Notes under the pieces: model-generated
Told to the model about the DNA's origin: nothing
What the model saw: the letters and a program-made list of their open reading frames with translations, nothing else
Databases searched by the model: none
Part shown: positions 46,822 through 49,554 of the stretch, one piece after another
Numbering within the stretch: position 1 is the stretch's first letter
Layout of the letters: every line of letters begins with the position of its first letter
Made by a program: the position numbers and the translations under genes
Assembly (NCBI GenBank): GCA_028288725.1
Contig: JAQGIC010000054.1
Span: forward strand, 1-64,000
Reading direction: 5' to 3'
Length of the DNA: 64,000 nucleotides
Source of the DNA: Rhodospirillales bacterium
GTDB taxonomy: Bacteria > Pseudomonadota > Alphaproteobacteria > ATCC43930 > CGMCC-115725

Positions 46822-46869
46822 ATGAGTCTAACTTTTCAACGGGCGGGATCGGGGGGACCATGGGGCTGA
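46822..46869 (+). CDS. Possible 15-residue leader peptide
   Basis: ATG 46822 has the best ribosome-binding site in this region (AGAGGAGA immediately upstream) and opens a 15-codon frame, reading MSLTFQRAGSGGPWG, that stops at 46869, ten bases inside the next gene. Terminating there could re-start ribosomes at ATG 46860. No amino-acid run typical of attenuation is present, so the role is unsure. Confidence 0.35.
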   Translation: MSLTFQRAGSGGPWG

Positions 46870-47357
46870 AGGCGGTCGGCTGGCATATCCGCCTGGCGCT
46901 GGCCTTGCTGCTCGTGGCATTGGCCGCGGGTTCGATGACGGCCGCCCGGGCCGACGAGGACGAGCCCGAATCGGTCGGCCCCTACCCTGGAACCGTCTCG
47001 CTCGCCTGCTCCTACTCGCTCACGGACGCCGTCCGCCGGCTGGAGAAGGCCGTGCGCGCGAACGGCATGACCTTGGTGCAAACGGTGAATTCCGGCGGGC
47101 GCGGACAGAGCGGCGTCTCGGTCATCCTGGTGTCGAGCAGCGAATATTGGGGTCGCATCCTCAAGGCCAGTCAACTGGCCGGCATGGAAATGCCGATCCG
47201 GCTCTATGTCACCGACACCGGCAACCGAACCTCGGCCGTGATCTATCGCACGCCGAGTTCGATCTTCGCGCTCTACGACACTGCCGAGCTGGACCGTATC
47301 GCGATCGAGCTGGACCAGCTGTTCGCCAAGATCGTCGATGACGCGATCGGCGAGTGA
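46860..47357 (+). CDS. DUF302-domain exported protein
   Basis: 165 residues with a signal peptide (cleavage near AARA) and a DUF302 domain: SLTDAVRRLEKAVRANGMTL, then VSVILVSSSEYWGRIL and MPIRLYVTDTGNRTSAVIYR. The domain binds small ligands or partners in several proteins; no enzyme is proven. The flavoenzyme-like gene starts 12 bases after the stop, so they are co-transcribed. A G-rich stretch before ATG 46860 serves as ribosome-binding site, perhaps aided by the short leader frame. Confidence 0.8.
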   Translation: MGLKAVGWHIRLALALLLVALAAGSMTAARADEDEPESVGPYPGTVSLACSYSLTDAVRRLEKAVRANGMTLVQTVNSGGRGQSGVSVILVSSSEYWGRILKASQLAGMEMPIRLYVTDTGNRTSAVIYRTPSSIFALYDTAELDRIAIELDQLFAKIVDDAIGE

Positions 47358-47369
47358 GCCGGTGAGCCG

Positions 47370-48788
47370 GTGAGCCAAAGCATGACCGATACGGCGCATT
47401 ACGACGTCTGCGTGATCGGCGGCGGCAGCGGCGGGCTGGCGGTCGCCACCGGTGCGGCCTTGCTGGGCGTACCGGTCGCCCTGGTCGAGCCCGGTCCGCT
47501 GGGCACGGATGGGGCGGAGGCGCTGGCGACGGCAACGCTGCTCGCCGTGGCGGCCAAGCTTCAGGCGACGCGGTGCGTGCCGGGCACGGTGCCGACGCCC
47601 TCGATCGATCTCGCCGCCATCCGCGGCCACGTCGCCGCAACCGTCGAAGCCGTGTCGGCGGCGACCGCCCCCGAACGCCTGCGCGCGCTCGGCATCCGTC
47701 TGATCGAGGCGCAGGCGCGCTTTCTGGCGCCCGACCGGCTCGCGACCGACGGCGCCCCGCGGATCCTCACCGCCCGGCGCTTCGTCATCGCGCCCGCGGG
47801 CAACTGGCAAATCCCGGCGATCCCCGGTCTGGATCGGGTCCCCTTTCTCACGCCCGCGGGCCTGGCGGCGCTCGATCGGCTGCCGGTCCATCTGGCGGTG
47901 CTCGGCGGGGGGGCCGACGCGCTGGAACTGGCCCAGGCCTACCGCCGGCTCGGCTGCGCCGTCACGTTGATCGCCGATGGCGATCCGCTGGACGGGCATG
48001 ATCCCGATTTGGTCGATCTGCTGCTCTTGCGTCTGCGGGCCGAGGGCATTCGCGTGCTGACCCATGCCAAGATCAGTCACGTGGTCGAGGGCAGCGCCGG
48101 CATCAGCTTGACCGTCGGTCCGTCGCAGACGGTGACGGCGAGCCATGTTCTGGTCGCGGCCGGCCGGCATTGCGACCTCGACGCGCTCGATCTCCGTGCC
48201 GCCGGCGTGCGCGGCGGACCGGACGGCATCCTGGTCGACCGGCAGCTCCGAACCACCAATCGCCGCATCTCTGCCCTGGGAGTTTCGACGGCCCGGCACA
48301 GTCCGGTTCAGGACGGGACGGCGCAGGCGGCGGTCATTCTGCGCCGCATCCTGTTTCGGCAAAAAGCCCGGTTCGATCCGATGGCTTTGCCGCGGGTCGT
48401 CCGGACCGGTCCGGGACTGGCCCAGGTCGGGCCGACCGAACGGCAGGCCCGGACGATGGCGGGCGCTGCAACAATTCTGCGCAGTCCCCTGCATGACAAT
48501 GATCGGGCCCGGGCCGAAGCCATGCCCCATGGCCTGGTCAAGATCCTGACCGATCGAAAGGGCCGGATCCTCGGCGCCGGCATCGTCGCCCCGAACGCCG
48601 ACGAATTGATCCAGCTCTGGCAACTCGCCGTGGCGCAAAAACTCATGATCGGCGCGGTCGCCAATCTGCCGGCGGTCTATCCGACCCTGGGGGAAGCCGC
48701 CAAACGCGCCGCCGGATCGTTCTTCGCCCCGCAATTGCTCAGCAGCCGCACCAAGAAGTTGGTTCGCTGGCTGGCCAAGTTCGGTTGA
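47370..48788 (+). CDS. Dihydrolipoamide dehydrogenase/mercuric reductase-like protein lacking redox residues
   Basis: 472 residues with the class I pyridine nucleotide-disulfide fold: FAD-binding VCVIGGGSGGLAVATG at residue 12, NAD-binding VLGGGADALELAQAYRRLG at about 185, and the dimerisation domain from 345 with the PERQARTM-like GPTERQARTM. The redox cysteine pair normally after the first motif (C-x4-C) is absent; that stretch reads PLGTDGAEALATATLL. The catalytic His of the H-x-H-PT motif is replaced in AVYPTLGE, and the third FAD motif ends ALGVSTA instead of A-x-GD. It cannot work as a disulfide reductase. GTG 47370 or ATG 47382 may start it. Confidence 0.85.
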   Translation: MSQSMTDTAHYDVCVIGGGSGGLAVATGAALLGVPVALVEPGPLGTDGAEALATATLLAVAAKLQATRCVPGTVPTPSIDLAAIRGHVAATVEAVSAATAPERLRALGIRLIEAQARFLAPDRLATDGAPRILTARRFVIAPAGNWQIPAIPGLDRVPFLTPAGLAALDRLPVHLAVLGGGADALELAQAYRRLGCAVTLIADGDPLDGHDPDLVDLLLLRLRAEGIRVLTHAKISHVVEGSAGISLTVGPSQTVTASHVLVAAGRHCDLDALDLRAAGVRGGPDGILVDRQLRTTNRRISALGVSTARHSPVQDGTAQAAVILRRILFRQKARFDPMALPRVVRTGPGLAQVGPTERQARTMAGAATILRSPLHDNDRARAEAMPHGLVKILTDRKGRILGAGIVAPNADELIQLWQLAVAQKLMIGAVANLPAVYPTLGEAAKRAAGSFFAPQLLSSRTKKLVRWLAKFG

Positions 48789-48820: not shown

Positions 48821-49327
48821 TCAGTCGGAATGGAGGATGTCGGGGCCGGGGCGCAACGCATCGTTCAGGCGGACGCCGGCCAGTTCCGGATCATGGATCG
48901 TGTGCATGCGCTGCCAGGCGAGCTCGATCAGCGCCACCCGCCCCGGCGACAGCCCATCGCTTTCGAGCATCACGGCCCGGACGTCGTCGATCAAGGTGCC
49001 CAGGTCGCGCGCGCCCTCGGAAAAGATCGCGATCGGGCGCCCAATCGCGGCCAGACGGACGCGGAACAGTCCCCAAAGATCCACGCGCGCGCGCGGAATG
49101 AACCCCACCAGACGCCGGACCTCGTCGGGGCATGCGCGGATGACCTCGCGGCCGGCGCAGGAACTGATCTGAAATTGCGCCGAGCGGACATCGCCGGTCC
49201 GGCCGCCGGTCGCCTGGACCAGTTCGACCGCGACGGCCGTACTTTCGACATTCATGCCGCGAACGAAACGTCGCTCGATAATGCCGAGCAGGCTTCCCTT
49301 CGGGCAAAGAACCTCGTAACCATTCAT
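48821..49327 (-). CDS. Uncharacterised protein
   Basis: About 168 residues from ATG 49327. No signal peptide, membrane segment or recognised motif; mixed alpha/beta composition with a helical C-terminus (GRVALIELAWQRMHTIHDPE). Coding character is better on this strand than on the opposite one, which has the acidic/basic, Gln-His-rich look of an antisense frame. A GTG at 49381 is another possible start. It is convergent with the flavoenzyme-like gene and shares a 227-bp gap with the OmpR regulator. Confidence 0.55.
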   Translation of the reverse strand: MNGYEVLCPKGSLLGIIERRFVRGMNVESTAVAVELVQATGGRTGDVRSAQFQISSCAGREVIRACPDEVRRLVGFIPRARVDLWGLFRVRLAAIGRPIAIFSEGARDLGTLIDDVRAVMLESDGLSPGRVALIELAWQRMHTIHDPELAGVRLNDALRPGPDILHSD

Positions 49328-49554
49328 CCCATCGGATAGTTGTGGCGATACCGAGAGATTCGAATTTTTCGGCTTTCGCACGGTTTTGCGCCAATCTACG
49401 GGCTGCCGGCCTGCTCGCGACCAGTTTGCAGTTTACTCCCGTCGTATTGAATGCATTTCCGAGTTATGTTAATTCCTGTTAAAAGTCTATTTTCCGTGAT
49501 CCCACGAAAAAATGGCCGAACTCCATCATCCTTTCAAAGCGGGACTAAAGGTCC

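Follow-up and report, generated by a model that had tools for sequence, protein, structure and literature searches.

The mercuric reductases (MerA) are, by sequence, the best solved-structure relatives (E 2.9e-40) of the protein described here, P0001. MerA carries a C-terminal cysteine pair, which is named in the titles of the entries 4k8d and 4k7z. P0001 resembles MerA in its fold (Z 41.5-43.1, at 27-30% identity) and in having a Tyr in place of the usual His, but it lacks the redox pair, and its last cysteine stands at residue 268, hence a C-terminal pair is absent as well. The MerA model TIGR02053 is matched with 242 bits, below its curated cut-off of 454. The best NCBIfam match of P0001 is NF004991, with 253 bits against a curated cut-off of 620 that is not reached. 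P0001 shares the YPTxxE lid and the C-terminal tail with this NF004991 / PRK06370 group of TVP38/DedA-linked, mercuric-reductase-like FAD oxidoreductases, but differs from it in lacking CxxxxC and the lysine of PSK, in that no TVP38 neighbour was found, and in the erosion of residues 304-316. Excerpts of a study on the DedA family report that in some proteins COG0398 DedA is fused to both reductase domains (PMC10127716).

Members of the superfamily without a full cysteine pair have been described. According to excerpts of the Irc15p paper, yeast Irc15p derives from lipoamide dehydrogenase and lacks the pair, yet carries FAD, accepts electrons from NADH and hands them on to menadione, and its authors propose a new role (PMC6296175). 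Irc15p and P0001 are alike as disulfide-reductase relatives without redox cysteines; they differ in that Irc15p binds FAD and oxidises NADH, whereas P0001 has also eroded at the residues presumed to surround the flavin. The same excerpts describe SthA and the Mycobacterium tuberculosis LpdA as having an incomplete cysteine pair and a changed His, and as being active without disulfide reduction (PMC6296175). The incomplete pair and the changed His are shared by P0001, a member of the same superfamily, but SthA and LpdA are described as active, whereas P0001 is known from its sequence and has also lost residues around the pair. Irc15p, SthA and LpdA are known parallels without a full pair, and all are redox-active. 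Pseudoenzymes seem to be few in this superfamily, Irc15p being the one found in the literature searched.

Fold and motifs of P0001

The window analysed here is a stretch of 64,000 bases (bases 1-64000 of contig C48) from a genome of 5.5 Mb (G000). The features relevant to P0001 are the following:

46860..47357, + strand: P0002, 165 aa, a divergent DUF302 relative with a signal-type N terminus, directly upstream of P0001
47370..48788, + strand: P0001, homolog of class I pyridine nucleotide-disulfide reductases that lacks the redox pair
47418..47435, + strand: GxGxxG, FAD Rossmann motif, kept (residues 17-22)
47493..47540, + strand: eroded redox-cysteine segment (residues 42-57)
47904..47927, + strand: NAD(P)-type motif GGGADALE (residues 179-186)
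48279..48317, + strand: eroded G-D ... F-T-H segment in which GD reads GV (residues 304-316)
48678..48695, + strand: YPTLGE, C-terminal lid, kept (residues 437-442)

The frame of P0001 is open and stop-free over 472 codons; by inspection, ATG 47382 is the likelier start, with GGTGAG 7 bases upstream. The FAD/NAD Rossmann domains and the C-terminal dimerisation domain expected of class I disulfide reductases are both present (Pyr_redox_2, PF07992, 110 bits; Pyr_redox_dim, PF02852, 73 bits; each exceeding its cut-off). An AlphaFold model based on an alignment of P0001 with 47 named homologs reached a mean pLDDT of 90.8 and superimposes on lipoamide dehydrogenases and mercuric reductases with Z 40-43 and an rmsd of about 2 over about 440 residues. 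The homolog-guided prediction confirms the fold and carries little information on the pocket. By descent and fold P0001 is a class I pyridine nucleotide-disulfide reductase, and the disulfide-reductase fold over 472 residues claimed in the first-pass annotation is borne out by the Pfam domains, the open frame and the model.

Conservation was judged on 136 loci, the window included, each represented by its best ORF (30 at E 1e-60 or better, 1, 25 at E 1e-75 or better, and 80 further). These loci were chosen by likeness to P0001, not by a random draw, and take in part of the matches present in at least 182 of 385 genomes. Among the 39 genomes of the window's own family, 20 match at E 1e-60 or better, and all 20 lie inside the set. 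A second sample, from another collection, consists of the best 80 of 478 named relatives passing an alignment-based profile search of genome contigs; it may overlap the 136 loci, and the same species may occur in both. These best 80 are mostly alphaproteobacteria, and a search of the same contigs with P0001 alone as query confirmed no relative. P0001 is 38-47% identical to the listed homologs outside its genus. One homolog, L132 (G154:C10:83747-85183), contains an in-frame TGA, possibly marking a broken gene or a recoded codon.

The family block GGDCLNxGC[VI]PSK reads GTDGAE--ALATAT in P0001, which confirms that the C-x4-C pair, the redox-active CxxxxC expected of class I disulfide reductases, is gone. 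CxxxxCxPxK is present in 133 of the 136 loci and absent only in the window, in G001, the second genome of its genus, and in G013, from another genus of its family; among the best 80 of the 478 named relatives all 80 have the pair. The earlier description of the protein as lacking cysteines was mistaken, as Cys is found at 14, 69, 196 and 268 (Cys14 being common to 127 of the 133 intact homologs). None of the four substitutes for the redox pair. Disulfide chemistry has almost certainly been lost in P0001. The absence of the catalytic His was noticed correctly: YPTLGE has Tyr for the His of the His-Glu catalytic pair and retains the Glu. It is not special to P0001, as Y-P-[TS] occurs in 134 of the 136 loci and the aligned position of MerA is likewise a Tyr, and the missing histidine is an ancestral trait of the homolog group. 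L106 (G410) has FPS instead of YPT and retains the cysteine pair.

None of the 133 intact homologs lacks the glycines G17, G19 and G22, and the window protein has them too. In this protein the CxPSK lysine, both T142 and G143 in the ATG motif, N162, E163, GD and F-T-H have changed, all positions that we take to be FAD contacts as in glutathione reductase and MerA. The change of GD to GV, also part of the original description, holds for the window, but G001 and G013, which likewise lack the pair, keep GD; E40 of the FAD site is kept in the window and lost in G001. In the GGGADALE motif, P182 and G184 have both become Ala in the window. Flavin turnover is likely lost in the window species and, less surely, in G001, which keeps GD but lacks E40.

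A set of 118 columns is conserved at 93% or more across the 133 intact homologs. Of these, 80 are retained in the window, 82 in G001 and 102 in G013, and no intact homolog has fewer than 107 (median 116). The window retains 22 of 46 columns in residues 1-165 (24 lost), 16 of 19 in residues 166-270 (3 lost), 13 of 20 in residues 271-340 (7 lost) and 29 of 33 in residues 341-472 (4 lost); with the parts grouped post hoc, the losses in parts 1 and 3 compared to parts 2 and 4 give a Fisher p of 1.3e-4 for the window and 5.2e-4 for G001. The match to the family consensus is 0.33 over residues 42-66 (lowest intact homolog 0.59), 0.28 over residues 67-110 (lowest 0.45) and 0.12 over residues 304-320 (lowest 0.53). 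Residues 431-450 match at 0.80 (intact median 0.75) and residues 341-430 at 0.57, the low edge of the intact range (5% of intact homologs: 0.58), and the NAD part (166-270) matches at only 0.39 (lowest intact homolog 0.48). Overall, the loss of conserved columns centres on the flavin/cysteine site, and most of those in the NAD(P) and interface parts survive.

The reading that we favour, with a probability of about 0.44, is that P0001 is a retained pseudo-reductase, a dimer acting as a nucleotide-binding scaffold or regulator without disulfide reduction and with little or no flavin turnover. Its ancestor would have been a mercuric-reductase-like enzyme, of a mostly alphaproteobacterial kind, usually encoded beside a TVP38/DedA membrane protein. 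The line leading to the genus has lost the cysteine pair, the adjacent lysine and most of the presumed flavin-ring contacts; the protein's dimer interface and C-terminal lid survive, as do most of the conserved columns in the NAD(P) domain, and the gene now lies behind a DUF302-like gene. The present protein would fold as a dimer whose ligand would be NAD(P)(H) or some other adenine nucleotide, and would act as a scaffold or regulator that responds to it. Fold, motif loss, open frame, purifying selection and synteny rest on the data, and ligand, partner and role are inferred. Against this count the low consensus match of the NAD part and the FAD-site residues that persist, GxGxxG and E40 in the window and GD in G001, with which FAD may still bind.

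Rather improbably, P0001 would instead be a non-disulfide flavoenzyme that still holds FAD and uses NAD(P)H to reduce a quinone, a dye or a nucleotide. The first-pass annotation had proposed a new non-disulfide role, quinone reduction among others; as to disulfide chemistry this is supported, but quinone reduction is weakened because the residues around the presumed flavin ring have eroded together with the cysteines, every changed position listed above being altered in the window. The survival of GxGxxG and E40, and of most conserved columns in the NAD(P) part, is nevertheless what a flavoenzyme would show, and so is the GD of G001. The proposal also stays alive because the parallels described in the excerpts of the Irc15p paper are redox-active and Irc15p itself carries FAD, moving electrons from NADH to menadione without the pair (PMC6296175).

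Second species, selection and phylogeny

The genus is represented by two genomes, the window genome and G001. G001 shares the gene order of the window over the block from 39.6 to 56 kb (about 16 kb) and has an open syntenic ortholog of P0001, which also lacks the redox pair. A sequencing or assembly artefact behind the loss of the pair can be set aside for practical purposes, since this separate genome lacks it in the syntenic gene as well and no point in favour was found.

P0001 and its G001 ortholog are 59.8% identical, the second lowest value among the ten usable genes of the block (others 53.7-87.2%). The NG86 dN/dS between the two genomes is 0.375 for the reductase, 0.395 for P0002 and 0.117-0.364 for the eight usable neighbours, a comparison that leaves out the gene at 44 kb, which has an in-frame stop in the frame used. 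When set against 2304 intact pairs with dS 0.6-1.1 (median 0.414, range 0.017-0.695), the P0001 pair gives a dN/dS of 0.403, with the NG86 dS near saturation and the intact pairs non-independent. This comparison shows only that the constraint on P0001 does not appear clearly weaker than that on intact homologs.

By part, dN in the window pair is 0.594 over residues 42-110 (intact median 0.328), 0.300 in the NAD part (0.447) and 0.267 in the interface (0.349). The corresponding dN/dS values are 0.434, 0.475 and 0.239, with 0.403 for the whole, and only the interface stands out; the contrast between parts is weaker by dN/dS than by dN because dS in residues 42-110 is also high. For the differences between G000 and G001 in residues 42-110, relative to the NAD and interface parts, the ratio is 1.69, a value reached by none of 8630 intact pairs with a NAD and interface identity of 0.45-0.80 (maximum 1.67).

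On these data it is unlikely that the gene is on its way out, under relaxed selection and still open in two species by chance. Such a fate would fit its place as the second least conserved of the block genes, a dN/dS exceeding that of the eight neighbours and just under that of P0002, the long branch leading to the two species and the missing TVP38 neighbour. It is opposed by a dN/dS well below 1, by the lack of any stop or frameshift in either species, and by a dN in the NAD and interface parts that is not above that of intact pairs. Under neutral simulation, moreover, just 21 of 2000 copies remained stop-free (30% change, GC 0.68 assumed). The argument made earlier from the intact frame, that this is not simple decay, is supported by the second species, though not proven. 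The gene is not plainly decaying and is under purifying selection. The pseudo-reductase reading is nonetheless trusted less, and decay more, because the parts separate less clearly by dN/dS than by dN; the sample of two genomes, the long branch and the saturated dS also weigh against it.

Trees were calculated with FastTree (136 rows) and IQ-TREE (51 rows), with the motif columns removed from both. The window and G001 are united with full support (FastTree 1.0; IQ-TREE 100/100) on a long branch, which on the side of these two from the midpoint root measures 0.97 changes per column (IQ-TREE), and among the 136 rows no root-to-tip path is longer than that of the window (FastTree). Both stand apart from the other rows of their family, and the smallest supported set containing them includes four rows of other families (99/87). 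As they do not group with their own family, P0001 could be a vertical ortholog, a paralog or a transferred copy; long branches may mislead its placement.

The pair-less protein of G013 (L010:1501-2925) has the first redox Cys replaced by Ser, the Lys of PSK by Gln and the lid Tyr by Val, and retains the second Cys, GD and a TVP38 neighbour. It groups with G004 of its own genus (0.945 in FastTree; 98/91 in IQ-TREE). The shift of change seen in the window pair is absent here, the ratio of differences in residues 42-110 to those in the NAD and interface parts being 1.05 for G013 compared with G004, a value reached by 890 of the 8630 intact pairs. The grouping suggests that the pair was likely lost twice, in the window's genus and in G013; a single clade of all three pair-less proteins is not rejected by the AU test (p 0.27).

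Gene neighbourhood

A TVP38/DedA ORF lies on the strand of the reductase in 110 of the 136 loci, upstream in 99 and downstream in 11. It was not found in 25 loci, the window and G001 included, despite at least 700 bases of upstream sequence in each, in a phmmer survey with two TVP38 queries from which distant members may escape; one locus of the 136 was not judgeable. In the best 80 of the 478 named relatives, TVP38 is within 400 bases or fused at 64 loci. The adjacent same-strand TVP38 gene typical of the TVP38/DedA-linked group was thus not found at P0001 in this survey. The window genome does contain four genes with a VTT domain, on contigs C15, C49 and C51, and its six Pyr_redox_dim genes are all located elsewhere. 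By eye, the TVP38-reductase pair seems to adjoin rnpA- or rpmH-like ORFs in the family members L020, L017 and L010; no TVP38 was found within 1.5 kb of rnpA in G000 and G001. COG0398 DedA is reported, in excerpts of the DedA study, to be essential in Caulobacter crescentus and Dinoroseobacter shibae (PMC10127716), and how the genus manages without the linked pair is therefore a testable question.

The gene directly upstream of P0001 had been described as encoding an exported DUF302 protein. Its adjacency is upheld, as the G001 ortholog of P0002 (72% identical) is also directly upstream of the reductase; the pairing occurs in both genomes of the genus and was seen in this genus only. The family label does not hold directly, with 13 bits against DUF302 (PF03625) and a Pfam cut-off of 23, and holds only via relatives that pass the cut-off in G041 (E 9e-22; 28.6 bits) and G047 (E 7e-14; 24.0 bits). 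These relatives lie on other contigs than the listed reductases of their genomes; a weak relative in G018 (E 1.3e-4) comes from a genome where no reductase reaches E 1e-60. A single-sequence fold of P0002 was unusable (pLDDT 43.9), and DUF302 was judged through the relatives. By inspection, P0002 has a signal-type N terminus and P0001 has none. Separate compartments are expected for the two products, and direct contact between them is doubtful because of this difference. A literature search found no work joining DUF302 with a pyridine nucleotide-disulfide oxidoreductase.

A bolder version of the pseudo-reductase reading, which we regard as speculative and quite doubtful, is that P0001 is a flavin-poor or flavin-free dimer that senses NAD(P)(H) and passes a conformational signal to a partner, in a pathway shared with the DUF302-like protein. 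A DedA-linked reductase would then have turned into a redox sensor that signals by conformation and not by electrons, and G013, without the first Cys, the Lys and the Tyr but with TVP38 kept, would represent an early step in another line. The many intact homologs, a possible second case in G013 and the apparent shift of change into the flavin/cysteine site make P0001 a tractable pseudoenzyme case, which asks what the disulfide-reductase fold does without its chemistry.

Downstream of P0001, the ORF at 48821-49381 on the reverse strand has no Pfam match at E 0.01; it is a fast-changing gene of unknown kind, 53.7% identical to its syntenic partner in G001.
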